DNA of 23,638 nt from a virus. The stretch spans positions 1 through 23,638 of the IMG/VR virus record IMGVR_UViG_3300025687_007376, one strand, 5' to 3'. Each line of letters opens with the position of its first letter. The first letter of the stretch is position 1. Below are positions 1,174-18,701 of this stretch, piece by piece. Position numbers and translations under genes: made by a program. The notes beneath the pieces are model-generated. The model searched no databases. It was not told the origin of the DNA and was given only the letters and a program-made list of their open reading frames with translations.

Positions 1174-1749
1174 TTACGACGGAGGAGCTACGTTCTCCCA
1201 AGGGCTTGGCTCGACGCGAGGAGCAGGGCTTTTAGGTTGAGTGGCAGCTGCCTGTTGTAGTTGGAAATATTGAAGAGCTTGTTTGTGTTGAATGAGCTCT
1301 GAGCTCAGTTGCTGCGTCTGAGCTTCTGCCCACTTACGTGCGTTCGCAGTCAACTCATCGAGTGCTGACTGTGAGTGAGGGAAGGCGAAAACTACGCCGC
1401 CCCCTTGCTTAACAGTAATCTTCTGCCCGTTAGTCGTTTCGGCGAGACCGGTCAGAAATGAATGAGCGCGTGCTGCGGAGATGTTTGCGATCATTCCGAG
1501 TTGGATGGGGTCGACAACACCTTTGTTGGCTTCGTAAAGAGCAGAGAAGCAAGAGGTTACCCGCGTGGCAGCCTCGTCGTTCTGGCGCTGACGGAGAACT
1601 CTCTCACGACCGATCCCTGCTCCTCCGATAAGGCCGCCAGCGAAAGCGAGAGAGGCACCGACAAACTGAGGCGCAGTAATCGCAGTGGTTACGCCAACAG
1701 CAACCGTGGCCGCCACTGCGAGTGTGAGGTTAGGGTTTAGACGGATCAT
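1174..1749 (-). CDS. Membrane-anchored protein with winged-helix-like domain
   Basis: The 191-aa product begins with two hydrophobic segments (about residues 8-28 and 32-47, the second glycine-rich), which suggests a short membrane hairpin. Residues about 65-125 fit a small winged-helix domain: a helix (CFSALYEANKG), a second helix pair (PIQLGMIANIS, then AARAHSFLTGLAE) and a wing (KQGGGVVFAFPH). The rest is Gln- and Ala-rich, probably coiled, with a Pro-rich end. It overlaps the primase stop by 20 bases and is the last gene of the leftward unit. Similar membrane plus winged-helix proteins occur in cyanobacteria. The function is unknown; replication complex anchoring is only a guess from position. 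Confidence 0.65.
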   Translation of the reverse strand: MIRLNPNLTLAVAATVAVGVTTAITAPQFVGASLAFAGGLIGGAGIGRERVLRQRQNDEAATRVTSCFSALYEANKGVVDPIQLGMIANISAARAHSFLTGLAETTNGQKITVKQGGGVVFAFPHSQSALDELTANARKWAEAQTQQLSSELIQHKQALQYFQLQQAAATQPKSPAPRVEPSPWENVAPPS

Positions 1750-4609: not shown

Positions 4610-5389
4610 CTACGCCTGTGGGTTTAGTTCGTAGTAATTTTTTAAAACCTGAAGCCAACTCTCACAATCCTTCTCAACTTCCTCTGTACCAAACGTAAAA
4701 ATTTGGGTGTTGAATTCTGGTATTGCAGTAGTAACGATAATTTGTGTCTTGACTATATTAATTCCTAAGCAGGACTCCGCTGCGAGTTTGTAAGCGGCGA
4801 GTTGTAACCTTGTCTTCTTAGTTTTAAATACGCCAGAGATTAAAGCTTTCTTCGTTTTCTCATCGAGATTTTGACTCTTGTTGGGGAAGCGGGCCGAGTA
4901 AGGTCCGTTGCTCGTCTTGAAGTCTGCGAGAACGATTTCCGCATTTGCGTTCATGTAGATGAGGTCACAGCAGCCTGCGTAACCATGACCTGTGTCATCG
5001 TTGTAGTAATGAATTCTACCTACACCGTCGTCACCAACATACTTCGCCCATCTTGGCTGATTAAATGGTTTCTCACTCCAAAGGACTCGACCACCTTCGA
5101 GCAGATTGTCCAATAGTTCTGGTACTCCGTTCCAGTAAGGTTTGTACTGTTCGGATGGAATTACTCTAAGACCACGGAGATAGTCCTCTACACTGTTATG
5201 TATCCATGTTCCTCTAGTCGCTGCAGCATCAGCAACTCCTGGATTCATTAAGTTCCAGTGCGCCAGTTTTTTACGCGTGGCTTCCGACTGAGTGGCGCTG
5301 AGTACCGAGGTGACTGAAGGCAGCGGTTTAGGTACACCGGCACACAGATAGTGCCTTAAACCGTTAATCGTTACGCGTGTATCGGACAC
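4610..5389 (-). CDS. PD-(D/E)XK exonuclease, RecB/Cas4-like
   Basis: The 259-aa protein has the ordered motifs of the RecB-like PD-(D/E)XK nucleases: RGTWIH (59-64, metal-binding His), SEKPF (about 105-109), GYAGCCDLI (136-144, catalytic Asp 142), ADFKTS (155-160, the DxK pair) and QLAAY (196-200). Such single-domain phage nucleases process DNA ends in recombination, replication or host DNA breakdown. I see no Cas4-type iron-sulfur cysteine cluster. The start is GTG at 5389 with no strong ribosome site. It follows the small acidic gene by about 26 bases and precedes primase-helicase, so it belongs to the replication unit. Confidence 0.85.
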   Translation of the reverse strand: MSDTRVTINGLRHYLCAGVPKPLPSVTSVLSATQSEATRKKLAHWNLMNPGVADAAATRGTWIHNSVEDYLRGLRVIPSEQYKPYWNGVPELLDNLLEGGRVLWSEKPFNQPRWAKYVGDDGVGRIHYYNDDTGHGYAGCCDLIYMNANAEIVLADFKTSNGPYSARFPNKSQNLDEKTKKALISGVFKTKKTRLQLAAYKLAAESCLGINIVKTQIIVTTAIPEFNTQIFTFGTEEVEKDCESWLQVLKNYYELNPQA

Positions 5390-5415
5390 AATGATCGTGT
5401 CAATTTGTTTTTATC

Positions 5416-5742
5416 TTAGAACGAAGTTGGGAATGTGTTTCCACTGCTTTCGTTGTCATCTTCGTCCTCATCGTCATCATTGCTGATGAAGAATTCCTGT
5501 TTTTGGTACTGATACTCCTTGTTTCTCTGCTCAAGCTCAGACATCAAGCAAAGTGCTGCTGAAAAACCTTCAATAGTAATTTCAGCGCAGTCCTCAGGTG
5601 TCCGAGCTTTACCCTGGTAATCAACGCATTCGGTAAGGAGCTGTTGACCGACTAAAAGTGCTGTGATCTTATCCAGCGCACTATTTTGCTCCTTCTGCAA
5701 CTGAATTAACTGATCAAGTTTATCGAGCAATCTCCTGCTCAT
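5416..5742 (-). CDS. Small acidic coiled-coil protein, unknown function
   Basis: I chose ATG at 5742 because it overlaps the stop of the upstream gene (ATGA, 5742-5739). A GTG nine codons upstream would create a longer overlap. The 108-aa product begins with a heptad-like helix (RRLLDKLDQLIQLQKEQNSA) and ends in a strongly acidic stretch with about ten Asp or Glu in a row (about residues 88-99) followed by Ser, Asn and Thr. Acidic tails like this occur in DNA-mimic and DNA-binding-partner proteins, but no family is recognised. It lies between a methyltransferase-like gene and a nuclease gene in one leftward unit. Confidence 0.6.
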   Translation of the reverse strand: MSRRLLDKLDQLIQLQKEQNSALDKITALLVGQQLLTECVDYQGKARTPEDCAEITIEGFSAALCLMSELEQRNKEYQYQKQEFFISNDDDEDEDDNESSGNTFPTSF

Positions 5743-6275
5743 AACTTTAAGTTTTGAGGACGGTGCCACCCTACTTCAAAATCTACTTCTGTCTTGCTTG
5801 TAGGAGCAGTACCCTTCTGGAATACAAACCATGCGGAGGTCACAGGATCTTTTGAGTTTGTACCATCCGCACGGAATGCTGGTCGCGGGCTCAATATCTT
5901 AATGTTTGTGAGTGATGCTTCCTGTAAGAAGTCTTCACGAGCTCTCGTGGGCTCTAAAAAAGTAAGTCTGTCAAGGATGCACACGCCTCTCGTAGCTACC
6001 TGTAACCCACATTCAGTTATCCACTTTGTATAGTCTTTCATACCCTGTGTGATGGCTATGACCCAGTCGACGTTTTGTTTTTGGTTCTGCCACCATTCGA
6101 GGTTGACGATGTCTTCCTCTGATCTACCGATCTGGATGTCGGACACACAGTCCGCTTTGACCTGCTCAGCCAGCTCACCCGTGGGATCGAATGGCAAAAG
6201 AACCCTACCCTCGATGAGATTTGAATTACGGATAGGATCGTAGATGTAGCGAGGGACTCGGTAAAAGCCAGACAT
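5739..6275 (-). CDS. Methyltransferase-like protein lacking the NPPY catalytic motif
   Basis: The 178-aa product resembles the Rossmann core of phage and cyanobacterial N6-adenine-type DNA methyltransferases. It has FDPTG (29-33) where motif I normally holds DP and G residues, a C-terminal half with LDRLTFLEPTRAREDFL (101-117), SPRPAFR (129-135) and PVTSAWFVFQKG (144-155). In active members the strand ending at about residue 75 carries NPPY/F; here it reads DWVIAITQG, so the catalytic motif is missing. It may bind DNA or SAM without methylating. Its start codon overlaps that of nblA on the other strand (CATG, 6273-6276), and its stop overlaps the next gene. The family assignment is by eye and moderately sure. 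Confidence 0.55.
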   Translation of the reverse strand: MSGFYRVPRYIYDPIRNSNLIEGRVLLPFDPTGELAEQVKADCVSDIQIGRSEEDIVNLEWWQNQKQNVDWVIAITQGMKDYTKWITECGLQVATRGVCILDRLTFLEPTRAREDFLQEASLTNIKILSPRPAFRADGTNSKDPVTSAWFVFQKGTAPTSKTEVDFEVGWHRPQNLKL

Positions 6276-6580: not shown

Positions 6581-7411
6581 TTAGAAATCCAGACCTGCAG
6601 CTTTTAATGCTGCTTTCTGTTCCTCAGAAAGATCTTTCTTGGGGGAACCTTTTTTTGCGGTCGGAGGTTCAGATGCCTCTGCCTTGGCGGAGGGATCGCC
6701 TGCACCTGCGGGGAGTGCAGAAAGCGCAGCAGGTGCTGCCCCCTCTAAGCGCCGTGGGTTAGCTTCCATAAAAGCTTCCTTGATAGCTGCATGATCCTCC
6801 CCGAGAGGTAGCTCAACCAGATTGCTACCGGGGATCCCACTTCGTAAAGCAGCAGCCACCAGGTCTCCTGAGCCGCCCTCAAGCCACGCCCCAATATCCT
6901 CGATGAGCTTACGCTCCTCGTCATTTTGAGCGGGCCGGTCTTTGAATTCGAGAGCGTTGTAGTTGATCTTTGCCCCATCTGCGCCTGTAACAGGATCCCT
7001 TTCGTTGAAGGACTTCTGTACAAATTTAGTCGAGGTAATTACCTCACCAACATTAATACGGTTGTTGTAGAGCGTTTGGAAGTACGAGATAAAGTTCTTT
7101 TGACTCGACTTGCCACTAATGATGCTTGTACATACACAGCGTGGCGGAAGCAGACGATGAGAAGGTGTAACACCAATGTAACTAATCCGAATAAACTCTT
7201 CATGCGAGCGCATGCCGAGGTTACCGAAGTACGGCGTAAACCCAAGAAGGATGAACTCAATGGGTATGCCGTTGTCATTTGAATCAGTGATGGCCGCGTC
7301 AGGATCAGTATCGGATTTCCAACGGCGAGCTTGAAGATCGACGCGGAGCGTGTGCGGCGGGACCTGGCAGAGAATTTCATCAGCCGAAAATTTGCCTGCA
7401 ATAAAAACCAT
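6581..7411 (-). CDS. 276-aa conserved-type hypothetical, possible SSB partner
   Basis: The product has a folded N-terminal part (about 1-200) with beta-strand-rich stretches (IPIEFILLGFTPYFG, then ISYIGVTPS) and a low-complexity tail of Ala, Pro and Lys (about 225-265). It ends in a short helix closing with AAGLDF. The layout, a globular domain plus disordered tail ending in an acidic-hydrophobic tip, recalls ssDNA-binding proteins. It lies directly after the SSB-like gene, nine bases apart, and before the terminator. No catalytic motif is visible and I do not recognise the family. A role at replication forks is inferred from neighbours only. Confidence 0.7.
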   Translation of the reverse strand: MVFIAGKFSADEILCQVPPHTLRVDLQARRWKSDTDPDAAITDSNDNGIPIEFILLGFTPYFGNLGMRSHEEFIRISYIGVTPSHRLLPPRCVCTSIISGKSSQKNFISYFQTLYNNRINVGEVITSTKFVQKSFNERDPVTGADGAKINYNALEFKDRPAQNDEERKLIEDIGAWLEGGSGDLVAAALRSGIPGSNLVELPLGEDHAAIKEAFMEANPRRLEGAAPAALSALPAGAGDPSAKAEASEPPTAKKGSPKKDLSEEQKAALKAAGLDF

Positions 7412-7420
7412 GGCCGTAAA

Positions 7421-8068
7421 TCAGAGAGAGAAGTCCAGTGAACCGAGAGCAGCCGTAGAGACGCGACCCTTATCTGGGTCTGCCGCTTTGGCGGGTGCAG
7501 CTTTCTTGCTGCGCGGGAGGTAGAGAACTTTCTCTACTCCATAGTTAAGGTACTTACGATCTTCCTTTTCGGAAGTACTTACGCGACCCACAGCGATGGT
7601 TGGAGTGCCTGGAGCAAGCTCAGCGAGTTGTCCGGAGAGAGCATCCCAAGCCGTCAGCTTGAACCAAGAAGTTTCACCCTTCTCGTCTTGCCAAGCCAGG
7701 GATCGATTGGTAACAGTGTTGTCGCCTAACTGAGTTTCCTCAGTCGTAGGACCAAGACCACCTGTGGATACAAAAAGGTTTACCGCCAGGAGATCATCCC
7801 AGTTGTCTTTGCCGACAACAAGCATGGGCTGCATTTGCAGGACACCATCCGGGGTGCTCTTGGTAGGACCGATTGCAAGTACAGTCTCTTTTTCTTTAAG
7901 GGTTTTGAGTAATTTTCCGACGTAGTGGTCCTCTTTCATTGAAAGTTGGACCTTAGTTGAGACCCGTCGATCGCTCGAGGGAAGGGACTCAGCTAAGACA
8001 TGCGCGACTTTGTTTTCGTCGATGTCTGCAGCGTCAGTGATCCTTAGACCTAAGGTGAAAATGTTCAC
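7421..8068 (-). CDS. Probable single-stranded DNA-binding protein with two OB-fold-like parts
   Basis: The 215-aa product seems to hold two beta-barrel-like halves. Residues about 95-190 follow an SSB pattern: NLFVSTGGLGP, NRSLAWQDEKGETSWFKLTA (SSB-type lA...WF.v), WDALSGQLAELAPGTPTIAVG (SSB-type wg..A..l.kG..v.v.G), then a Tyr-containing last strand. A Lys-Ala-Pro linker and the tip SLDFSL follow, similar in arrangement to the flexible SSB tail. It would protect ssDNA at forks and recruit partners. The start is GTG at 8068, overlapping the HNH/HTH gene by 35 bases. Assignment is by pattern, without alignment. Confidence 0.6.
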   Translation of the reverse strand: MNIFTLGLRITDAADIDENKVAHVLAESLPSSDRRVSTKVQLSMKEDHYVGKLLKTLKEKETVLAIGPTKSTPDGVLQMQPMLVVGKDNWDDLLAVNLFVSTGGLGPTTEETQLGDNTVTNRSLAWQDEKGETSWFKLTAWDALSGQLAELAPGTPTIAVGRVSTSEKEDRKYLNYGVEKVLYLPRSKKAAPAKAADPDKGRVSTAALGSLDFSL

Positions 8069-8684
8069 GGTTTAGAGTTCGGTAAATCGTTGAGCGGTGT
8101 ACTTTAAGTGCCTTGGCTATCTCTTTAGCAGGGACGCCTTGGCCTGAGAAGGCTAGTACCAAATTCGTGTCTGCGTCGCTAAGTTTTGATGCCTTCATCT
8201 TCTTGTAAGAATTGTGGTACGGATTTATGCATAGACGGTTACCACATGAAGGTTTCACACAACCATCTTTGTTGATCTCAAGGTAATCCAGTATCAAGGG
8301 ACGCACGTAGTACCTTTGACCTAGCGTATAAACCGTCGGGGATCCGTTAACGAATTTACCGATCCACTCGTCACATTCGTTGTGGCTGAACTCACTGAAC
8401 GCCAGCCTCCTGAAGAGCGTCGCCAAAGGGACCTCCTCAATCTCTTTGTAATCCAGCTGAAAGGACTCCCCATGAAGAGCCCGAGCTATGTCCGAAGCTT
8501 GTGCTTGCGCGTGGCCTGCGTCATTAGCTGTTATAGCTAACTCTATACGCTTTGATCTTTTCGTAATTGTTAGGCAGTGACTAATACACGTCATTTGGCA
8601 TGAACTGATCTGCTGCCTCCAGGATTCGACGCCTGTCTTCTTCATTCGCAGCAAAAATGGGGTACAGCTTAAGCCATACCCCAA
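8034..8684 (-). CDS. HNH-like nuclease domain fused to C-terminal helix-turn-helix
   Basis: Residues about 104-160 resemble phage HNH (homing-type) endonucleases: CDEWIGKF, then GCVKPSCGNRLCINPYHNSY, which matches the family's H-C-N-x-x-C-x-N-P-x-H loop. The first His is missing, reading VKPSC instead of LHKC, so activity is doubtful. Residues about 170-205 form a resolvase-like helix-turn-helix (GVPAKEIAKALKVHRSTIYR). The combination suggests a DNA-binding protein from a homing endonuclease lineage. The longest frame starts at TTG (8684) behind GAAGGA. ATG codons at 8645 and 8594 are alternatives, and if used, the inverted repeat at 8659-8682 would be upstream. The 3' end overlaps the SSB-like gene by 35 bases. 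Confidence 0.65.
   Translation of the reverse strand: MGYGLSCTPFLLRMKKTGVESWRQQISSCQMTCISHCLTITKRSKRIELAITANDAGHAQAQASDIARALHGESFQLDYKEIEEVPLATLFRRLAFSEFSHNECDEWIGKFVNGSPTVYTLGQRYYVRPLILDYLEINKDGCVKPSCGNRLCINPYHNSYKKMKASKLSDADTNLVLAFSGQGVPAKEIAKALKVHRSTIYRTLNREHFHLRSKDH
8659..8682. repeat. 24-bp imperfect inverted repeat
   Basis: GGGGTAcaGCTT is followed directly by AAGCcaTACCCC, so 10 of 12 positions pair around the centre between 8670 and 8671. It sits at the 5' end of the HNH/HTH gene and could be an operator bound by a dimer, perhaps by the HTH protein itself. No T tract follows on either strand, so it is not a standard terminator. Confidence 0.5.
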
Positions 8685-8767: not shown

Positions 8768-9586
8768 TCAGATACCTAAGTAAGCAGCAGCTCCACCACC
8801 AATCATGGAAGAGCGCTTGGCAATTTCCCTCATTTGAGCATCAGAGACACCCTGTGCTCGGAGGGCTTCAACGTCTTTCATACCGAAACCTGCACCGCCA
8901 GCTGAACCGGGATCGTAGGTGGAGGTGATGGTTTGCGTCCTGCTAGGTGCCACGTTTAACTGAGCGGCAGCCTTGGGACCAACCATCGGTGCCTGAGCGG
9001 CCAGCGTCCGGATAGTATTCTCGTCGACACCCTTCGCACGAAGAGCCTTCACATCCTTCATACCAAAACCGCCAGCTCCGTATTTGGTGTAGTCAAATAA
9101 GCCAGGCGTGGTGGACTCGTAACCTTGAATACCCAGAACTTCCTGTGCACCGGGACCAATGTTGTACAGGTTTGGGCGTTGGCTTTGAACCCAGCTCTTG
9201 ATGCTTTCCGGGTCGTAACCAGCGTCGATCGCTGCGTAGTAGTCCTTCAGACCAAATCCTTTCTCACCGATGTCCTCAACACCGACACCACCAACAGTGC
9301 CGAAGTATGTCTTGAGAGCTGCTTGAGGCGGAGCTGCTGGAGGCGGAGCAGACACAGCGCTTGCAATTTCAGGAGCCAGTTCGAATTCGACAGTACGAGC
9401 CGGTTCGGCTGCAGCTTTAAAGGTCGCTGTGGAAGGACTACGCCCTTTTAACTGCGAGGTGATTTTGAATGATGGGAATAGACCTTCAAAACCAGTCGCT
9501 TCTCCGTTCTCATCCTCAAAGAGACCAGCCAGGTCGATTCCTAGCTTAGATCCTGCCTTACGGAGTCCCTCTTTGGTGACGGCCAT
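8768..9586 (-). CDS. Protein with three GFGMKD-type repeats, unknown function
   Basis: The 272-aa product contains a repeat of about 41-44 residues three times: about 110-153 (GFGLKDYYAAI to LGI), 172-212 (GGFGMKDVKALRAKGV to LNV) and 232-272 (GAGFGMKDVEALRAQGV to YLGI). Each repeat is predicted as helix, turn, helix ending at a conserved Gly-x-x-Ala-Ala. An Ala/Pro linker lies at about 72-92. The start follows AAGGT by a suitable gap, and the gene has its own promoter. Cyanophage genomes often carry such repeat proteins, perhaps structural, but I cannot name a family. Placement inside a replication region argues against assuming a virion role. Confidence 0.75.
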   Translation of the reverse strand: MAVTKEGLRKAGSKLGIDLAGLFEDENGEATGFEGLFPSFKITSQLKGRSPSTATFKAAAEPARTVEFELAPEIASAVSAPPPAAPPQAALKTYFGTVGGVGVEDIGEKGFGLKDYYAAIDAGYDPESIKSWVQSQRPNLYNIGPGAQEVLGIQGYESTTPGLFDYTKYGAGGFGMKDVKALRAKGVDENTIRTLAAQAPMVGPKAAAQLNVAPSRTQTITSTYDPGSAGGAGFGMKDVEALRAQGVSDAQMREIAKRSSMIGGGAAAYLGI

Positions 9587-10037: not shown

Positions 10038-10931
10038 CTACTTATTCTCAATGAAAAATCTTTTTAGATCAAAGCCGGGACCCACGGCCCCCTTTAATAC
10101 GCGCATAGTCATCTTGGCCTTTTCGTGGCAAGTAAAGTACTGTGCTTTATCTTTTTCTGACGTATAGCTTACTAAGTTTCTTCGTTCTTTATCAAGACAG
10201 CTACTCACGTACATAGAGTCTTTTATAATTACCCACACCTCTTGGAAACGCAGGAGAGGCATTGCCTTGGTCTCTTCGAGAGTGTACAATCTCGACCTTA
10301 AGACTACCTTTTTAGTTGATTGTTTGACTACATAGTTTTTGTCTTTAGTCAGCTTCTTTTGTGTTTCTTTACATTTTTCTTTACTCCCTCCGTCCAGCGT
10401 TTTCTTGAGCTTACGGGCGTTGTTTGCTGCCTCTAGAGCACTTTTGTAGACCTCGACAGTTAGGCAGATTGTGGAGTCAGTTCGTAAGCAACCTACATAG
10501 CCTTCTTCTGTCTTAGCTGTGAATATCTCTTTCGTGTCTGACACATCTAGATTCAAGATCTGGACACCAGCTTGTTTCTTTCCCTTAGCCTCCGACGGCT
10601 TTTTACTTTTAATTACGGGAGTCTTCTCTTGCTTAAGCGTCTCGCCGACGTGCAACGAGAGTCTGCTTTGCTCGTGCTCCGCCGTGGACTTGAAGCCATC
10701 CCACAAGACGTTGGCGTAATGGCGACGGTCGCCGCGAGCGTTCGTCTTGACGAAGACTTCTTTGACCGTCCCCTTCCGTGCGTCGGTAGAGATATGGCGC
10801 ACAAGATCAGTCTTCTTCTTATCCGTGAAGTCCCCGATGAACGTGATGTTTTTATGAGTTTCCGTAACCCGATCACCCACCTTGAACTTGCTAGGGGAAA
10901 GAGGTCTGGTGCGCTTAGCCGTCTTGTTCAT
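10038..10931 (-). CDS. Lys-rich protein with N-terminal KOW/SH3-like segment
   Basis: The 297-aa product is strongly basic. Residues about 14-95 resemble a KOW/SH3-like barrel: KFKVGDRVTETHKN, RKGTVKEVFVKT and YANVLWDGFKSTAEHEQSRL, the pattern seen in small nucleic-acid- or protein-binding beta barrels. A Lys/Ser linker follows (about 98-118) and then a C-terminal domain of unknown type (about 120-297) with several Cys. The ATG overlaps the DNA polymerase stop (ATGA, 10931-10928), so the two are translationally coupled and may act together, for example as a processivity or template-binding factor. That role is inference. Confidence 0.7.
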   Translation of the reverse strand: MNKTAKRTRPLSPSKFKVGDRVTETHKNITFIGDFTDKKKTDLVRHISTDARKGTVKEVFVKTNARGDRRHYANVLWDGFKSTAEHEQSRLSLHVGETLKQEKTPVIKSKKPSEAKGKKQAGVQILNLDVSDTKEIFTAKTEEGYVGCLRTDSTICLTVEVYKSALEAANNARKLKKTLDGGSKEKCKETQKKLTKDKNYVVKQSTKKVVLRSRLYTLEETKAMPLLRFQEVWVIIKDSMYVSSCLDKERRNLVSYTSEKDKAQYFTCHEKAKMTMRVLKGAVGPGFDLKRFFIENK

Positions 10932-12823
10932 TTGTCTGACCAGTTGCCCCCGTGGCTAGCGTCAGCCTTAGCTGGCACTTCCTTCAGGATTGTCTCCGCT
11001 GCTTCTTTCATGCAGCGTTCAAGGGTGAGTTTATACTCTTCGACCTTATCGGTTTCGACTTCCAAGACAATTTCGTCATGTACACAAGCGATTAGGTTCA
11101 CACCCTCTGTGAGGTAGGGGTTTAGTTTCGCTAGAGACAGCTTGAGTATGTCTGCGCCCGCCCCTTGGATGAGTGTGTTGGCACAAGCAGTCATTGTCGC
11201 GTCGTCGTAGCTCAGTAGACGCCTCCGACCCAGAGGCGTCCTCACATAAGTCCAACCGTCTTCGACCATGGCCGCTCTCTCGCGGTGCCATTGCTTCAGG
11301 CGAGGGTAAGCATTGTGGAACGCTGTGTGCGCTACCTTAGCTTCCGATAACGTTATGACTTTGCCGCTTTGAGCTGCGTAGGTCTTGTATTTTCTGAAAC
11401 CCATTCCATACAGCAATGCGAAGTTTAGTGTCTTTCCTTCCTGCCTTTGGTGCTTCTGTACTTCTTCCAGTGGCACCTTATAGATCAAACTCGCAGTCAC
11501 CGTGTGGAGATCGTGCCCTTCTTTGAAGGCTTTGATCATCTGAGGTATACCAATTAACTCCGCACCTAGCCTGAGCTCGATTTGAGAGAAGTCGCAGATG
11601 ATCAGTTCGTAACCAGGCGTGGCCACGAAGCAACCTCTGAACTCAGAGCTTCTAGGGATCTGTTGCGCGTTGATTGCGAACTGACTCTTTACTTGTTTGG
11701 CACTCGTCTTCTTGGCGCCACTTGAGGTGAAGCGCCCGGAGTTTGCTCCGTACTGATTGTATCCGGAATGAATTCTTTTAGTGATTGGGTTGATGTTTGC
11801 TATGAGTTTCTCAGCGTGCTCAAGGCGTGTCTCAACCTTAGTGCGTTTCCTATAAAGGTTTAGAAGCGGGTCATCGCTGTCGAATTCCGCGAGCTGCACC
11901 TGGTTAAGCGTGCTTTTTCCAGTTCCTGGGTTAACTGGTAGTTCAATGCCAAGAGCCTGGAAGCATTTGGTGCACTGGACTCCAGAGCCTGGATTAAACT
12001 CCTTCTTTTGTTTCTTTCCGATTGCCAGGGAGCCATCTTCTCTTCGGGGTAGTTTGAGTTCGGCAGGTAGGGAGCTGTCTAGCTCTGTGCAGAACTCTAA
12101 CGTTATCTCATTTAACTCTTTTTCAATAGAGCTTCTTAGTTCTATTAGCTTAGTAACATCGACGTTAAATCCTCTGTGACACATTGCTGCCACGGGGCGT
12201 ATGCACTTCGATTCGAGTGAGTAGACATCAAGCAAGGATTCTTCTGCAAGTTCCCGGAGCTGATCGGCTGCGATCTGAGGGAGTAAATCAACGTCCTTAG
12301 CCGCGTAAGTTATCTGCTCGATGTCGAGGTCAGGCTTACTCCAGTCCGAAACCTGCTGCTCCTTAGAAATCTCTAACTCGAGTCTCCTTTCTACGACAGC
12401 TTTTAAAGAGCAGGAAACGTCTGCGAAATAAGCTTTTTGAGCCTGTGGGCTGATGCGCTTCTCTTTAAAGCCAGCCCTTAGGCACCGCTCAGCTATGTAT
12501 GTGTCGAAGATTTTACCCTTGAAGTCGATTCCGAGACTTAGCAGGAACTGCAAGTCGAAATTAAGGTTATGACCTAAGAGCATTTCTCTGCTCTCGATCA
12601 GCTCTTTAAGACCCTTAGTGGTACTCAGTTTGAAGAAATCAATTACGTAGACGTTTCTGTCTTTTAGTTTCTCGTCAGTTGAGCACAACTGGAGCAGTCT
12701 CGGCTTAGCAACATGAGGACAAAGTCCAGTCGTCTCGAAGTCAAGGCATAGCTTAGGAATCTGGTGCAGCTCGTCTAAAGCATCTTTGAAATCCTGATCT
12801 TCTGTGAGGTAGGTGATTTTCAT
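10928..12823 (-). CDS. polA: DNA polymerase I, family A, with 3'-5' exonuclease
   Basis: The 631-aa enzyme replicates phage DNA. The 3'-5' exonuclease domain shows Exo I LCLDFETTG (Asp28, Glu30), Exo II LLGHNLNFDLQF (about 87-98) and Exo III YAAKDVDLL. The polymerase domain shows motif A CDFSQIELRL (Asp about 411), motif B GKTLNFALLYGMGFRKY (about 464-480, with RQE before it) and motif C ACVHDEIVLE (about 578-587). There is no 5'-3' exonuclease domain, as in many phage PolA enzymes, and the length is usual for the phage group. The start is the first ATG, directly behind an intrinsic terminator and without a clear ribosome site. The stop overlaps the next gene. Confidence 0.96.
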   Translation of the reverse strand: MKITYLTEDQDFKDALDELHQIPKLCLDFETTGLCPHVAKPRLLQLCSTDEKLKDRNVYVIDFFKLSTTKGLKELIESREMLLGHNLNFDLQFLLSLGIDFKGKIFDTYIAERCLRAGFKEKRISPQAQKAYFADVSCSLKAVVERRLELEISKEQQVSDWSKPDLDIEQITYAAKDVDLLPQIAADQLRELAEESLLDVYSLESKCIRPVAAMCHRGFNVDVTKLIELRSSIEKELNEITLEFCTELDSSLPAELKLPRREDGSLAIGKKQKKEFNPGSGVQCTKCFQALGIELPVNPGTGKSTLNQVQLAEFDSDDPLLNLYRKRTKVETRLEHAEKLIANINPITKRIHSGYNQYGANSGRFTSSGAKKTSAKQVKSQFAINAQQIPRSSEFRGCFVATPGYELIICDFSQIELRLGAELIGIPQMIKAFKEGHDLHTVTASLIYKVPLEEVQKHQRQEGKTLNFALLYGMGFRKYKTYAAQSGKVITLSEAKVAHTAFHNAYPRLKQWHRERAAMVEDGWTYVRTPLGRRRLLSYDDATMTACANTLIQGAGADILKLSLAKLNPYLTEGVNLIACVHDEIVLEVETDKVEEYKLTLERCMKEAAETILKEVPAKADASHGGNWSDK

Positions 12824-12829
12824 GAGGTT

Positions 12830-12855
12830 AAAAAAAGGGGCGCCTAAGACGCCCC
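12830..12855 (-). terminator. Intrinsic terminator directly upstream of the polymerase start
   Basis: Read leftward, GGGGCG (12855-12850) and CGCCCC (12842-12837) form a 6-bp G/C stem with a 7-base loop, followed by seven T (12836-12830). It lies 20 bases past the stop of the 270-aa gene, and the polymerase ATG begins at 12823, only six bases beyond the T run. It should end the AAA+/VWA operon, with polymerase made by read-through or a hidden promoter. Confidence 0.88.
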
Positions 12856-12874: not shown

Positions 12875-13687
12875 TTACGCAGCATAGAGGCGCCTTTCGC
12901 GAAGTCGAGTGCTCCACCGATGGCTGATGAAATCCGTAATGTCTCCCCACTCATTCGCTACCTCGATACCTTTGGAGGTTAGGGAAACAGCGTAGACCGT
13001 CCGACGCAGTCGCTTGCTGTTGTTGGTCAGATCCTTGTCTTGGCTACCAAATTCGATAGTCTCCTTCAGGTTTACCAGACCCCATTCTTTAAGCAAAGCC
13101 ACCCCGTCACGCATGGAGCTATACATTGGCGAAGCGTGGTAGCAAGCGTTGCGAGGGACGCTGCTGCTTTGCACAAGGGTGCGGTAGTGACCATCCGCGT
13201 CCTTAATGAAGCCCTTAAAGCACTGGGAGTCAGGGCTCACTGAGCCTCGGTATGCCATCGAGTTGACCGAGCTGGTGGCAATCTGACGAAGAGTCTTGGT
13301 CTGACCTCCCTTGAGATTGTCGAGGATCATCGCGGCACCGACTGCCTTAATCGTCGACATGTGGCACAACGCATCGATTGCCTGCGAGGGCAAGTCGATT
13401 TCGTTTGTCAGCTCAATTTGGGAGAGCTTCTTTGCTTCGCTCCTCTTCGTGCCCTTTTTGGTGGGAAGCTCGACACCCTCGATGGCGAAACGTGCAGCGA
13501 GTGATGCAAGCGTCGGGTTTTTGGTCTCGACACTGATGTTAAAGAGCTTCTTAGCATCGATCATTCCGAAGTCCACGTGGTCGGCCACGTCAACTACGAT
13601 TGAATCAGTGCGACCTGCTGCGCTGAATAGCGCCTTGGCTTCGTTTTTATCGAGAACAGTGTCGCCAATTTTGAACTTGAAGTTCAT
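12875..13687 (-). CDS. 270-aa protein with probable winged-helix C-terminal part
   Basis: The C-terminal third (about 190-270) resembles a winged helix: GVALLKEWGLVNLKETIEFG as recognition helix and strand, then RRTVYAVSLTSKGIEVANEW as wing and last helix. The N-terminal half has the basic stretch KKGTKRSEAKK (about residues 77-87) and small helices, without recognised motif. It is the last gene before the intrinsic terminator. An ATG starts it with no strong ribosome site. It could be a transcription regulator or a DNA-binding replication factor; no family is recognised. Confidence 0.65.
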   Translation of the reverse strand: MNFKFKIGDTVLDKNEAKALFSAAGRTDSIVVDVADHVDFGMIDAKKLFNISVETKNPTLASLAARFAIEGVELPTKKGTKRSEAKKLSQIELTNEIDLPSQAIDALCHMSTIKAVGAAMILDNLKGGQTKTLRQIATSSVNSMAYRGSVSPDSQCFKGFIKDADGHYRTLVQSSSVPRNACYHASPMYSSMRDGVALLKEWGLVNLKETIEFGSQDKDLTNNSKRLRRTVYAVSLTSKGIEVANEWGDITDFISHRWSTRLRERRLYAA

Positions 13688-13770: not shown

Positions 13771-14196
13771 CTAAGCTGCACGTTCTAGCACCTCCTTTAC
13801 CAAGCTCACTTCTTCATACCAGTAAATAAAGTCGTCTACTATCTGCATGGACATTAATTCGAAGTCTAACTCAGTGAGTATCAACGACTTCTCGATGTCC
13901 TTGTTGTTGGCGAGTTTCGAGACACCGTAGTTCCTGTGTAGGAACCCTGAGAGCAGGATTGAGTAGTCGACGGCTTTATTGTTAACCAGCCTCGTTGCAT
14001 TGAATATCTCGTTACTTCGCACATATATAAATACCGCTTCTCGGAACCTAAACAGTATGGATTCAGTTTCTTCTATATCATTGTATGTGTTGAATAACTG
14101 TTCTGCTATCCAGTCTTCCAGCTCGAATCTTTCGTTGCGGGGAGAGTACTCGGCTTCGAGTCTTCTGATAGCGGCAGCTTCAGACTGTTTGCTCAC
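13771..14196 (-). CDS. Acidic helical protein downstream of the VWA gene
   Basis: The 141-aa product is acidic and almost wholly helical by composition, with Leu, Ile and aromatic residues spaced as in helix bundles (for example LFRFREAVFIYVRSNEIFNA). It starts with GTG behind GGAAAG and follows the VWA gene by 53 bases. No motif is recognised. Its position suggests it is an accessory to the AAA+/VWA module or an adaptor for it, but this is only context. About 80 bases without a gene follow it. Confidence 0.6.
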   Translation of the reverse strand: MSKQSEAAAIRRLEAEYSPRNERFELEDWIAEQLFNTYNDIEETESILFRFREAVFIYVRSNEIFNATRLVNNKAVDYSILLSGFLHRNYGVSKLANNKDIEKSLILTELDFELMSMQIVDDFIYWYEEVSLVKEVLERAA

Positions 14197-14249: not shown

Positions 14250-15791
14250 TCACCTCAAAGCATTTTGAAACAGTTCTGCACTCCTAGGGTTATCTGTTAC
14301 GTCTACAGTGTGCACGTAGTCACTGAATTCTTTTAGAATACTAGCCTTTCTGCCGATACAGAAGCTGTTCCACTGAATCCCATTGGCTTCTTTAAAAGCT
14401 TTGAGGCGACGGATAAACGGGTCAGAGACCTCGGCGTTGCCGTCGGTAATCATCAGAACATCTGCTTTTTCCAGCATGTTCACTTTGTTCAGCGCGTGGT
14501 CGATAACGGCGTAGAAGGATGTGCCCCCTCTTGTCGTCCACGTCATGACGAAATTAAGTAACTTCTCGTTGTCTGAGCGATTGCTTTCCAGGTAGATGCT
14601 TTTTTGTACGATGTTGTCAAAGAGATGTATGTGAGTCTCTCGCTTTTGCTTGAGGCATTCCTCGGCCACAACGTAGGTAATTGCTTTAGACCAGAGCTCT
14701 GACTCACCCGACATCGAACCGCTGATGTCGATATACATAACCACTGGGCCTTTGTCGAGCTCTTTGATTTTTGCCTCGTAGTCCTTGGTTAGAAGCGTCT
14801 TTTGGCTGTACTTAAGGGCAAACAAGGCCTTGCCTTGCGTGGTAGCGGCTAGTGCTATCTCTGTAGGGAACGCCTGCGTCACGGCATCGGAGAACTTGGC
14901 ACCGACGATATCGCTGTAGCTACTCTGTGCTTTCCGAGCTCTTTTCCGATCTGCCCAAGCTTGCCGGAGTGCTCCCAGTTTGCGCGTGAGTTCCTTGAGA
15001 GCCGGGTTTGCCTGAAGCTTCTTGGCGAGTCTTCGCTTCTGCTCGAGGTCGTTGAGTGCTAGACCGTTACCGGTTTCAGTTCCCGCGAGCTGGCTCATGG
15101 CTTCCGAAGTTTCGTCGGAAGCTCGTTGGGCCTTGTCCATTGCTTCACTGACCTGAGGCTTGATGGACTCACTGGCCTGGCGCATTAGCTGCTCAATTTT
15201 TGCTCCAAGCTCTTTTCCTTCCTGGCGAAGTTTTGCTGCTTCCTCGTTGTTACCTGCCTTCTTAGCCTCGAGAAACTTCTCCCGAAGTTCTTGTAGGTCA
15301 CCCGCCGCGTTCGCTAGAAGCTCACCGTCAAGAGAACCCTCAGTTATCTGAGTTTCGATGACTTTGCTCAGCTCGTTGATGATGTTTACGGCGTTGTTAC
15401 CAGCGTTGAACTGATCGCCCACGGAAGTAGCGATTAGCCGTGGCCACGCTGGGGCTTCAGTGATCTGAATAAACAGGTTTACCCAGAAAGCTGATTCAGG
15501 CTTGTAGTTGGCTGGGAACGAAGGGTTTAAACCGTTCTGTTTTGCACGAAAGTAGTCTTCGATTTCGTCCAGATTGATGATTGTTGTTACCTGACCTCCG
15601 TTGTACAAGAAGTCGTACAACTCTTTCCCGAATCGGGATAGTTGATTGATGTTGTAGCGGTCCTCTATGTATTTGACGATTGGTCTAGCGTCGCGAACAA
15701 AGTCTTCCCAAAGAAAGTCTGTCAGCGCGGACACCGCAAGAACCAAGGGTTCGTTATTAACGAGGCGAAGAAACTCTCGATTTACATTCAT
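14250..15791 (-). CDS. VWA-domain protein, ViaA/CoxE-like partner of the AAA+ ATPase
   Basis: The 513-aa product has an all-helical N-terminal region (about 1-340) with a heptad- and Gln/Glu/Lys-rich coiled-coil section (about 160-245). It ends in a von Willebrand A domain (about 345-513) with MIDAS residues DISGSMS (Asp about 354), a Thr-containing loop TTRGGTSF and LMITDGNAEV. This layout matches ViaA and the CoxE/CobT-type partners of MoxR ATPases, which bind clients and stimulate the ATPase. The ATG overlaps the ATPase stop (ATGA, 15791-15788), so the two are co-translated. The target in the phage cycle is unknown. Confidence 0.88.
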   Translation of the reverse strand: MNVNREFLRLVNNEPLVLAVSALTDFLWEDFVRDARPIVKYIEDRYNINQLSRFGKELYDFLYNGGQVTTIINLDEIEDYFRAKQNGLNPSFPANYKPESAFWVNLFIQITEAPAWPRLIATSVGDQFNAGNNAVNIINELSKVIETQITEGSLDGELLANAAGDLQELREKFLEAKKAGNNEEAAKLRQEGKELGAKIEQLMRQASESIKPQVSEAMDKAQRASDETSEAMSQLAGTETGNGLALNDLEQKRRLAKKLQANPALKELTRKLGALRQAWADRKRARKAQSSYSDIVGAKFSDAVTQAFPTEIALAATTQGKALFALKYSQKTLLTKDYEAKIKELDKGPVVMYIDISGSMSGESELWSKAITYVVAEECLKQKRETHIHLFDNIVQKSIYLESNRSDNEKLLNFVMTWTTRGGTSFYAVIDHALNKVNMLEKADVLMITDGNAEVSDPFIRRLKAFKEANGIQWNSFCIGRKASILKEFSDYVHTVDVTDNPRSAELFQNALR

Positions 15792-16972
15792 GTTGAAATA
15801 CCCGAGATCGAGGTGATTACTGATTGTGAGGAGGACTCGATTGCTTGTATGAGCTTTGTAGCTGATTGTCTAGCACTCGCAGAGATTCTGTATTGCCCTG
15901 ATTCCAAGATGTTGTCCAGCTTGGTGTTAAGTGTCTCTAAATCTTTGTGCATCTTCCGGAGCTTGCTGACAATCTTGCTCAGGTCATCGATGTTCTTCGA
16001 ATCCTGAGCATGGAGAGCGTGGTATTCAGTGAGGATACCGTTGTGAGCTCTCTTGATGCTTTCGAATAACCTTTCAGCAGTAGGAACCGCTTGTTCTAAG
16101 ACTTCCTTGATAGCCGAGATGTCATCGTGCGTCTGGTAGACAATGTGTACGAGCGACCTGTGGAGATGCTCCGGGTGCAGCTCGTCATCTCCTTGAACAA
16201 CAGCCCAACCTCTGAGGAACTTAAGTATCTGCACCCTCCTCCGATCGCTGATGGTTATCCCCCGCGTGGCTAGAAGGTCGACAACTTGAGTGAATGAATC
16301 GAGAAACTCATCGCTTACTCCTACATCCTCTACTTCTAGTTGAAGAGTTTGAAGATCCTCGAATGTGAGTTCTGAGACAATTTCTGGTCTCTTGTTCAGG
16401 TTGAGCGCCCACGCATCTAAGCACCGTCTGGATGTTGGCTTCTTCAAGAGTTCGACCGTCGGCCTAAACAGAAAGCGATCGCAGAAAGCCTGAAGCGATT
16501 CTTCTTGAGGAAAACTGTTCGTAGCCGCGACAATCGACTGGACAGGAGTCTCTAGAACGTAACGCCCGTTGTTGAAAGTTCTCTCGTTGAGGATTGTCAG
16601 TAGAGAGTTGAGTACGGCAGAGCTGCCTCTGAAAAGCTCGTCAAGGAAAGCAATGTTGGAGCTTGGAAGGTAACCCTCAACGTCTCTAACGTATTCGTCT
16701 TTCAAGAGACGCGAGACCGCGACAGGCCCAAACAACTCCGATGGGTCTGTGGTGGGGGAGAGAAGGTAACCGAAGAACTTCGAACCCTTAAAACCATTTG
16801 AGACTGCGCGGACGAGTTCAGACTTACCTGTTCCAGGTAGCCCGAACAGGAAGCTGTTCTGTTTGGTGATTAAAGAGGCCAAGAGACCGTCAATCACATC
16901 CTCACGCTCGAGGAAACTTGTGTTCAAGCTGGAGCGAAACTTTTGGAGATTGGAGAAAAGGGCGTCGTTCAT
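15788..16972 (-). CDS. MoxR-family AAA+ ATPase, RavA-like
   Basis: The 394-aa ATPase carries Walker A GLPGTGKS (44-51), a RavA-like stretch TTDPSELFGPVAVSRL (74-89), Walker B FLDE (109-112) followed by AVLNSLLTILNERTFNNG, sensor 1 AATN (149-152) and a C-terminal lid. Residue order matches RavA very closely, including the DP-E-FGP loop. MoxR proteins with a VWA partner act as chaperone-like remodelling hexamers, for example in metal-cofactor or complex maturation. The C-terminal third is helical and longer than the core. The start is ATG three bases after the helical protein gene. CobS-like ATPases are close alternatives. Confidence 0.9.
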   Translation of the reverse strand: MNDALFSNLQKFRSSLNTSFLEREDVIDGLLASLITKQNSFLFGLPGTGKSELVRAVSNGFKGSKFFGYLLSPTTDPSELFGPVAVSRLLKDEYVRDVEGYLPSSNIAFLDELFRGSSAVLNSLLTILNERTFNNGRYVLETPVQSIVAATNSFPQEESLQAFCDRFLFRPTVELLKKPTSRRCLDAWALNLNKRPEIVSELTFEDLQTLQLEVEDVGVSDEFLDSFTQVVDLLATRGITISDRRRVQILKFLRGWAVVQGDDELHPEHLHRSLVHIVYQTHDDISAIKEVLEQAVPTAERLFESIKRAHNGILTEYHALHAQDSKNIDDLSKIVSKLRKMHKDLETLNTKLDNILESGQYRISASARQSATKLIQAIESSSQSVITSISGIST

Positions 16973-16975
16973 TGT

Positions 16976-18193
16976 TTAAAAGTCGAGTTCGGAGGTTGTC
17001 TCGGCGGTGATTTGTTTGACCTCGTCTAATAGGTCATCTAGGTTTGTTGTCTGTGCTGTAACAAGCTCAACTCTCTGGTTAAAGAGAGATTGAAGATGTT
17101 TCGCTCGCTGTTGATAGACATCCTGCTCTACGAGCAACTCGTGGTGGAGTGAATCAAGCTGCTCGATACTCTCTGCGGTGTTGATTTTTGTGAGAAGGTC
17201 TCGATAGGTGCTCGATAGTGCGAGTGACTTTTTAAGAGCATCGAGCCCATCGCTGGAATCACGGGCAGCCACAATTGAGTTCAATTCCTTTCTGATCTCA
17301 CTTTTGAGATCTGCGTAGTCCTGGAAAGCTTGGAGCTTTACCTTTTCGGACCCAGCTTGAAGTCGAACTCCCACGGCCAGTAAGTCCTCGGAGAGTTTAG
17401 AAAGCTTTGTGAATCCTGGGCAATGACGCGTAATCAAGCTCAAGCTTTCTGCGGTGATCTGCCAAGAACCTCTTCGTTTTGAGCCACCGGTTTGTCGCTC
17501 GCCGACCTTCGACGAGATACGAACGTCTAGATCATCAAGAAGCTCAGCTGCTTTTGCAAGTGCTCGATCTGCAGCTCCGTCTCTAGCTGCTTCAAGTACT
17601 TCGTTGGTGTTGATCGCTGCTGCTTCCTCGATCGCTGAGGCCAGAGAGTGTTGGTCTCTGCTTTCAGAAACAGAAAGACTTACAGGATTCGGCCCTACTA
17701 CAAATACTTTGATCGGGTTCTCAAACTCTTGCTTGGTAGGGAAGATCGACAAGTACGCTTCTTTAGCGAGCTTGAACCCTTCGGAGTCGTTACGAAACAG
17801 GGGTTCGAGGAACCCTTCGACGGTAACGCTCCAGCGTGTGTACTCCTCGAGCCAAAGCTCATTCAGTTGAGCGTTATACCTCGCGGCGTCAGACCTGATC
17901 TTTTGGATGCGTTCCATCGCATCCTCGAAGTGGTCACCATGTAGGAAGTGAACGTCTCCGTTGTGGATGGTGCACTCGTCGTAGAGCTTACGTTGCTCTA
18001 TCCTCAGAAGATTGAGAAACTCCTTGAGCTTCCCAGAGAGCGTGGGTCGTACAGAGACGGACTGCTGTTTCTCAAGAATGTCGACAACTGTATCGGGTAG
18101 ATGCAGATCGGCAAACTTAATCTGTGTGCTTTGTCGAACTGAAGCGCTCACTGAGCAGTGAAGAAGGAAGATGCTGTCAGTCATGTCAGTCAC
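16976..18193 (-). CDS. Large helical protein of the AAA+/VWA module, possibly DUF3150-like
   Basis: The 405-aa product has an N-terminal part (about 1-170) with short strands and an amphipathic helix set (FLNLLRIEQRKLYDECTIHN, later LAKEAYLSIFPTK), then long coiled-coil regions (about 190-230 and 290-390). It ends in SELDF. It resembles the large helical proteins often found next to CobS/MoxR and VWA genes in phages and plasmids (the DUF3150 type), but this is recalled, not aligned. The start is GTG at 18193 overlapping the stop of the coiled-coil gene (GTGA); ATG at 18184 is an alternative. Its place directly before the ATPase points to a scaffold or client adaptor. Confidence 0.7.
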   Translation of the reverse strand: MTDMTDSIFLLHCSVSASVRQSTQIKFADLHLPDTVVDILEKQQSVSVRPTLSGKLKEFLNLLRIEQRKLYDECTIHNGDVHFLHGDHFEDAMERIQKIRSDAARYNAQLNELWLEEYTRWSVTVEGFLEPLFRNDSEGFKLAKEAYLSIFPTKQEFENPIKVFVVGPNPVSLSVSESRDQHSLASAIEEAAAINTNEVLEAARDGAADRALAKAAELLDDLDVRISSKVGERQTGGSKRRGSWQITAESLSLITRHCPGFTKLSKLSEDLLAVGVRLQAGSEKVKLQAFQDYADLKSEIRKELNSIVAARDSSDGLDALKKSLALSSTYRDLLTKINTAESIEQLDSLHHELLVEQDVYQQRAKHLQSLFNQRVELVTAQTTNLDDLLDEVKQITAETTSELDF

Positions 18194-18615
18194 TTGAGGC
18201 GGCGGAAGACGGCGGTGATCTTGTCTGTGACGAGGTCTACAGCTCCGGTGATCTCGAGTTGTTTGATCAAGCTATCTCGCTCGATCTTGGCGATCTTTAA
18301 CTTTCGTTCTAAGTCAGCAATCTTCTCGTTGAGTTTGTCGAGCTTCGCGTGTGGTGACGGCGAGCGATCGATCCGGACGACGATATTGGTCCGAAACTCG
18401 GGGAACTTGAAGAGTGACTCCTCACCTCTGAAAACCGAGAGGTCGATCCCCTTGCTCTCAGCTTTGTAGAGCATCGACGTGAGGTTTGCTCGAGAGGCTT
18501 CATACTCCTTTCCGAAACCTTCGTTCAGTTCGGCGAGTGCGTTGTCGCATGCGTCGTATCTCTCGGCACTGATGAGACCCTGAGTGATCAAGTCTTGCGT
18601 GGTGATCTTTTGCAT
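18190..18615 (-). CDS. Small coiled-coil protein, first gene of the AAA+/VWA operon
   Basis: The 141-aa product starts MQKITTQDLI. An ATG at 18681 would add 22 residues but lies over the -10 of the promoter, so I reject it. Residues about 92-125 form a clear coiled coil (KLDKLNEKIADLERKLKIAK). The middle holds SLFKFPEFRTNIVVRIDRSP, maybe a short beta hairpin. The stop overlaps the GTG of the next gene. It probably acts with the helical protein and the ATPase. I recognise no family. Confidence 0.65.
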   Translation of the reverse strand: MQKITTQDLITQGLISAERYDACDNALAELNEGFGKEYEASRANLTSMLYKAESKGIDLSVFRGEESLFKFPEFRTNIVVRIDRSPSPHAKLDKLNEKIADLERKLKIAKIERDSLIKQLEITGAVDLVTDKITAVFRRLK

Positions 18616-18623
18616 TTGATTTG

Positions 18624-18673
18624 ATGCAGAGGATTTGCACCACGTTGAGGGCCTGTGCCGCCCATGCAGAGGA
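18624..18673. repeat. Pair of 10-bp direct repeats at the operon promoter
   Basis: ATGCAGAGGA occurs at 18624-18633 and again at 18664-18673, exactly 40 bases apart, which is close to four turns of B-DNA. The second copy touches the -10 element and the first lies in the leader just before the first gene. This spacing fits a pair of operator half-sites for one regulator on one face of the helix. Confidence 0.45.
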
Positions 18674-18701
18674 ATGTACATCGCTCAGCTCACCCTGTCA
18701 A
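18673..18701 (-). promoter_or_regulatory. Strong sigma70-type promoter of the AAA+/VWA operon
   Basis: On the - strand a perfect TTGACA (18701-18696) is followed after 17 bases by TACATT (18678-18673, 4 of 6 to TATAAT). Expected initiation is at about 18666, leaving a leader of about 50 bases before the ATG at 18615. This is the best promoter-like site I found in the window. Confidence 0.75.

Follow-up and report, generated by a model that had tools for sequence, protein, structure and literature searches.

Pairs of a MoxR-type AAA+ ATPase and a VWA-domain protein are common in phages and other mobile elements, where annotations often place them among metabolic (CobST) or assembly factors; few experimental data are available. 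Biochemical evidence indicates that p618/p892 of the Acidianus two-tailed virus (ATV) act as chaperones when the tail grows (PMC4124505), an assembly role has been proposed for the pair of group 2.2 jumbo phages (PMC7824862), pairs have been reported in haloviruses (PMC7911831), and CobST, with a proposed role in cobalamin synthesis, is widespread in tailed viruses (PMC8651126). The cellular relatives act on metabolic complexes, RavA-ViaA on fumarate reductase and CbbQO on rubisco (PMC10585395, PMC3893208, PMC4660213). In MoxR-VWA systems, as reported for NorQD, an acidic residue supplied by the target completes the metal of the metal ion-dependent adhesion site (MIDAS), and a finger of the VWA protein is thought to occupy the pore of the ring (PMC9976466). 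Here we analyze the four-gene cassette cc141-hel405-moxR-vwa of the IMG/VR virus fragment IMGVR_UViG_3300025687_007376 (23,638 bases, hereafter the window). An initial annotation of this DNA had called the role of phage MoxR-VWA pairs unestablished, but the systems above show that viral pairs are not wholly uncharted. The cassette belongs to the core of the replication module in a widespread phage lineage related to the freshwater cyanophage S-EIV1 of Synechococcus, and we propose, with a probability of roughly 0.45, that it encodes a RavA-subfamily MoxR-VWA motor with dedicated partners, whose task is to remodel complexes of phage replication or recombination. In the literature that we searched, coverage of which was incomplete, we came across no account of a RavA-type pair that is a constant part of a replication module together with a hel405-like partner.

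Conservation of the cassette and its link to the replication module

The four genes all lie on the minus strand, run from 18615 to 14250 and are tightly coupled, with a GTGA overlap, a spacing of 3 bases and an ATGA overlap as successive junctions, just as the initial annotation had described them. The cassette genes and their motifs are as follows.

18190 to 18615, minus strand: cc141, helical hairpin protein of 141 amino acids, no known family (AlphaFold2 model, predicted local distance difference test (pLDDT) 94)
16976 to 18193, minus strand: hel405, virus-only partner of 405 amino acids, DUF3150-like by fold only (alignment; AlphaFold2; Foldseek)
16979 to 16984, minus strand: codons of the hel405 tip, Asp404-Phe405
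15788 to 16972, minus strand: MoxR AAA+ ATPase of the RavA subfamily, 394 amino acids (bpMoxR, 1.2e-54; RavA structures 6q7l/3nbx, 5e-35)
16820 to 16843, minus strand: Walker A motif GLPGTGKS, residues 44-51 (from the sequence)
16637 to 16648, minus strand: Walker B motif FLDE, residues 109-112 (from the sequence)
14250 to 15791, minus strand: VWA protein, 513 amino acids, ViaA-like from residue 193 on (ViaA model, 2.6e-15; VWA_CoxE, 1.2e-5)
14715 to 14729, minus strand: MIDAS motif DxSxS, residues 355-359

Scans of IMG/VR with three cassette proteins yielded 32, 44 and 33 loci, and the gene order, whose recurrence across phages had been named as a check, was found in over 100 contigs of IMG/VR. 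A set of 76 non-redundant contigs shows cc141-hel405-moxR-vwa-(d141)-d270-polA-p297-hnh-p215-p276 in an almost unchanging order, with adjacency of hel405 and moxR in 71, moxR and vwa in 72, cc141 and hel405 in 68, and d270 and polA in 70; most of the exceptions are genes cut by contig ends. This is far beyond chance. To avoid selecting on the cassette itself, contigs were also fetched with polA only and counted only if they held at least 6 kb upstream, and hel405, moxR and vwa were present in all of these loci (37/37). In further loci fetched with a hel405 profile, hel405-moxR-vwa were consecutive in 57 out of 57. The cassette is thus a real, conserved system that is specific to one phage lineage. 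The genes that follow vwa, ahead of and including the polymerase gene, are listed here.

13771 to 14196, minus strand: d141, variable protein of 141 amino acids, usually after the VWA gene (65/76 contigs)
12875 to 13687, minus strand: d270, 270 amino acids, precedes polA (71/76 contigs)
10928 to 12823, minus strand: family A DNA polymerase with 3'-5' exonuclease, adjoins the cassette (PF00476, 6.9e-64; 37/37 linkage)

The phages measure about 66-87 kb, and in contigs of this size the capsid, terminase and portal proteins show 69%, 53% and 47% identity, respectively, to those of S-EIV1, a kinship that makes a photosynthetic cyanobacterium the probable host. At maximum sensitivity of the hidden Markov model searches, S-EIV1 has no moxR, vwa, hel405 or cc141; d141 and d270 are absent as well, p215 and p276 have no match, and its polymerase has only 22% identity to that of the cassette lineage. 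Similarly, a moxR query that does detect the window found no match in any of 13 contigs whose capsid is of the S-EIV1 type, seven of which measure 70-126 kb, while the cassette contigs of at least 60 kb that were searched all have the sister capsid type. There are two sister lineages, with a common head module and different replication modules, and the cassette segregates with the replication module. As the S-EIV1 kin share the head module and lack the cassette, it travels with the replication genes and not with the head genes. This lock to the replication module, together with the absence from head-sharing relatives, is the strongest clue at this locus and had been missed by the initial annotation.

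The comparison with S-EIV1 bears directly on the main rival explanation, a chaperone role in virion (tail) assembly as in ATV p618/p892 and the group 2.2 jumbo-phage proposal, which we consider unlikely. Among viral MoxR-VWA pairs in the literature searched, that of ATV alone has experimental data (PMC4124505; PMC7824862), it shares with the window a RavA-subfamily MoxR and a VWA partner, and in the cassette lineage a number of tail-side genes are without a counterpart in S-EIV1. However, S-EIV1, whose capsid, portal and terminase are homologous, builds its particles in the absence of the cassette, its near relatives also lack moxR, and the cassette sits in the leftward replication block, apart from the rightward structural genes. 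The occurrence of S-EIV1-type kin without the cassette therefore speaks against the idea that head assembly generally requires it; a tail role is less firmly excluded, since the two lineages differ in tail genes as well. The ATV system differs further in that it belongs to an archaeal virus and is a virion component that acts in extracellular tail growth, and no DUF3150-like partner of it was reported in the literature searched.

The MoxR ATPase and its VWA partner

The initial annotation had recognized a RavA-like MoxR protein with a VWA partner, and the matches to bpMoxR, to the RavA structures and to the ViaA model bear this out. It had also placed Walker A at residues 44-51, Walker B at 109-112 and the MIDAS near residue 354; these motifs are present, with the first MIDAS aspartate at D355, and are conserved in homologues. 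The sensor Asn152, Arg131/Arg166 and Arg244/245 were identified as well, and the key residues of MoxR are invariant in 34 diverse homologues, with the exception of Leu45 and Leu110. With the Walker motifs, sensors and arginines of the AAA+ core all in place, the ATPase is a member of the RavA subfamily. In the VWA protein, the MIDAS residues D355, S357, S359, T424 and D450 are all invariant across 42 diverse homologues.

Like RavA-ViaA of E. coli, the window has the ATPase gene directly before the VWA gene, its AAA+ core (residues 7-294) corresponds to RavA 9-300, and residues 193-480 of the VWA protein correspond to ViaA 150-456. In contrast, the N-terminus of the VWA protein is unmatched, the ATPase shows no match past RavA residue 300 and no Pfam match to the C-terminal triple-helical/LARA part of RavA, and the set has two extra virus-only partners and the context of a replication module. 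The ATPase scored 132 bits against the RavA equivalog model (cut-off 681) and the VWA protein 57 bits against that of ViaA (cut-off 500), the latter match covering residues 193-480 only. As the matches are partial and fall far below the equivalog cut-offs, the pair probably works like RavA-ViaA, yet it is not its orthologue.

Since metabolic complexes are the targets of the closest cellular relatives, and the host is probably photosynthetic by S-EIV1 kinship, the cassette might instead remodel a respiratory, photosynthetic or carbon-fixation enzyme complex of the host, as do RavA-ViaA and CbbQO. We regard this as quite unlikely, as the linkage to polA is universal and strict, unlike that of patchy auxiliary metabolic genes, two of the partners are virus-only, and the related plasmid sets discussed below adjoin recombination genes. 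A CobST cobaltochelatase-type helper that boosts cobalamin synthesis of the host is disfavored and highly improbable: despite the wide distribution of CobST in tailed viruses (PMC8651126), the ATPase is of the RavA/bpMoxR type, with a match to the CobS-like phage family of only 0.0027, and the VWA protein is ViaA-like, with no match to a CobT domain.

A third protein besides MoxR and VWA is the logic of the MoxR-vWA ternary conflict systems (VMAP, beta-propeller) too, and the best Pfam match of our ATPase, bpMoxR, is the MoxR of such systems. A cassette with its own upstream promoter would also suit a conflict system, be it counter-defense or a superinfection-exclusion version of the ternary systems. 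Nevertheless, this explanation is improbable. The window set contains no match to VMAP, iSTAND or beta-propeller components and no effector domain, its architecture is constant at the loci examined, as opposed to the effector turnover of conflict systems (PMC7159879), and there was no relevant PADLOC match; the inactivation of host defense suggested in the initial annotation thus found no link.

The nearest annotated phage homologues are the ATPase and VWA protein of Moorella phage MTATph1 (MoxR 33% identity over 88%; VWA 25%). There, a DUF6744 gene lies upstream of the pair and no relative of hel405 or cc141 was found; conversely, DUF6744 was not detectable in four cassette phages. The genes upstream of the polymerase in PA-SR01 are cassette-like by size, but were rejected for lack of AAA or VWA homology.

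The virus-only partners and the hel405 tip

The last residue of hel405 is Phe in 97 of 97 unique sequences and the final two are Asp-Phe in 95 of these; in a second, partly overlapping set the tip is DF in 51 of 52. In the alignment, D404 is conserved at 94% and F405 at 100%, and the preceding acidic tail is poorly conserved, a docking-like pattern that suggests a short docking motif. Two other module proteins also have C-terminal motifs: the Phe at position -3 of the p215 tip GS(L/I)(D/N)FSL is invariant (116/116), and p276 ends in GL(D/E)(F/V) in most sequences.

The AlphaFold2 model of hel405 has a pLDDT of 80.5. A similarity to DUF3150 had been considered before the result of the viral fold search (Foldseek), in which the top eight matches had probabilities of 0.98-1.00 and the next 0.30. 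The sole informatively named match among these eight was a DUF3150 phage protein (probability 1.00, E 4.8e-5), with a TM-score of 0.29-0.38; the Foldseek TM-scores were low (0.22-0.38). No Pfam match to DUF3150 (PF11348) was obtained in 36 hel405 members, no phage DUF3150 sequence bridging to hel405 was found, and we do not claim membership of this family, as the profile comparison was non-significant and not above decoys. No relatives of hel405 were found among annotated phages, nor in bacterial genomes by a pattern scan of limited sensitivity, and a fold search of the PDB gave no significant match.

The AlphaFold2 model of cc141 consists of two long helices (residues 5-53 and 89-122), and its viral fold search returned no significant match. 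For hel405, cc141, d141 and d270 alike, sequence searches of Pfam, PHROGs, NCBIfam, PADLOC and the PDB gave nothing usable; weak coiled-coil and urease-gamma matches were rejected.

Parallel gene sets on plasmids

SXT/R391-like, IncC and related conjugative elements carry DUF3150-AAA-VWA gene sets. In the seven plasmid lineages examined, a DUF3150 gene is grouped with genes for a MoxR-type AAA protein and a VWA protein. Five of the seven sets adjoin bet or recT and a lambda-type exonuclease gene, four of these five also have an ssb annotation, and one set is followed by a gene with a toprim domain. The plasmid sets share with the cassette the clustering of a MoxR-type AAA, a VWA protein and a DUF3150-like partner, the site beside replication or recombination genes, and a partner with an aromatic C-terminal tip (YFF, FYF and FWF in the plasmid proteins). 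They differ in that the plasmid AAA is of the CbbQ/NorQ/CobS type and the VWA protein often CobT-like, that the kinship of hel405 is by fold only, and that the plasmid tips lack the conserved Asp. In Aphanizomenon phage CL131 (L111 1605-5785), MoxR and VWA genes lie directly before the gene for the DNA polymerase III beta-clamp. These neighborhoods, which arose separately, point toward DNA replication or recombination.

On the IncC plasmid pAR060302 (L470 8254-11793), Bet, Exo and the DUF3150 protein all have acidic-aromatic tails (SYY, FYW and YFF), resembling docking tips of the single-stranded DNA-binding protein (SSB) type.

Proposed mechanism

As a fixed part of the replication gene block, the cassette probably acts on the DNA-copying machinery of the phage itself and is not an optional accessory. 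The MoxR protein would form an ATP-driven ring, with the VWA protein as its substrate-binding adaptor, in which the MIDAS metal would grip an acidic ligand. hel405 might be a dedicated adaptor or the first substrate, presented through the Asp-Phe tip on its flexible acidic tail, which may dock on the MIDAS of the VWA protein or on a site shared with SSB. In this manner hel405 could guide the motor to complexes of phage replication or recombination (SSB, polymerase, exonuclease), and these would then be remodeled or recycled by the motor.

A more specific version, which we judge unlikely, is that the motor would recognize a hydrophobic-(D/E/N)-F C-terminal tip common to hel405 (DF), p215 (GS(L/I)DFSL) and p276 (GL(D/E)F). 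Such recognition would correspond to SSB-tip docking but be driven by ATP, the tip Asp serving as the MIDAS ligand, and the same logic might hold for the DUF3150-MoxR-VWA sets of SXT/IncC elements.

Several observations weigh against a replication or recombination role. Gene neighborhood is no proof of function, and some tail genes, too, differ between the cassette and S-EIV1 lineages. The TM-scores that connect hel405 to DUF3150 are low, and in hhalign the comparison of hel405 to DUF3150 gave E-values of 0.018 and 0.082, with unrelated decoy families scoring alike. Moreover, the plasmid AAA and VWA proteins (four of each scanned) are CbbQ/CobT-like or generic, not RavA/ViaA. The proposed role is directly testable, with a pair fixed in the replication module, a virus-only partner with a near-invariant tip, and the S-EIV1 lineage as a natural comparison. 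SXT/IncC elements spread antibiotic resistance, and their DUF3150-MoxR-VWA genes, on which little work has been done, invite the same test.

Transcription signals and other features of the locus

Downstream of vwa, d141 and d270 are followed by a terminator and then by the family A DNA polymerase gene. The signals that flank this set of genes are the following.

18673 to 18701, minus strand: promoter TTGACA-17-TACATT (10/12 consensus; hexamers kept in five relatives)
18616 to 18672, minus strand: leader with the conserved block TGCATGGGCGGCAC(A/C)GGCCC..AACG(T/C)GGTGC (kept in relatives; core once in the window)
12837 to 12855, minus strand: intrinsic terminator, 8-bp stem followed by T7 (strongest in the scan)

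The dedicated promoter that had been postulated is supported. Every letter of TTGACA and TACATT is conserved in five relatives, of which two have the same sequence in this region, and the spacer varies. In a scan of the window the promoter is not statistically special (6 promoter-like sites versus 9.7 in shuffles); we take it as conserved because the hexamers are identical in relatives, which the raw scan alone would not reveal. Likewise, the terminator at which d141 and d270 had been said to end (12855-12837) tops the window scan, but the scan total (14) is on a par with shuffles (13.8). The GC-rich conserved block of the leader, which extends from the promoter to the cc141 start, contains an ATG and could be a regulatory site or a leader peptide. 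No Rfam families or tRNAs were found in the window.

The neighborhood of the cassette includes, besides the polymerase, an SSB-like protein (p215), an exonuclease, a primase and a dCTP deaminase; the remaining module genes that we located are given below.

7421 to 8068, minus strand: p215, SSB-like, with a conserved C-terminal GS(L/I)(D/N)FSL (PF00436, 8.7e-4, below cut-off)
6581 to 7411, minus strand: p276, conserved module protein with a linker and a GL(D/E)(F/V) tip (conservation in relatives)
4610 to 5389, minus strand: exonuclease of the replication module (phrog_298, 5.9e-25)
1730 to 4507, minus strand: primase-helicase, D5-like (D5_N, 1.5e-10; DUF5906, 1.3e-17)

Directly before the SSB-like gene, in overlapping frames and in nearly all relatives, lies a gene for a helix-turn-helix protein (8034-8588; HTH_7, 1.8e-7). 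The window also encodes a repeat protein with GFGMKD motifs (p272; 8768-9586), of which some relatives have at least two copies; in contig G001 a single copy (4674-5927) is located close to the terminase and portal genes.

In contigs G023, G029 and G032 the capsid gene is split by approximately 1 kb near codons 37/38 (e.g. G032:C1:25773-27880), with flanks of 82-92% identity, a pattern that an intron or an intein-like insertion would produce. G001 carries a large gene for a Nol-like carbamoyltransferase (L114 16597-18204) and, elsewhere, glycosyltransferase genes, which are probably auxiliary genes.

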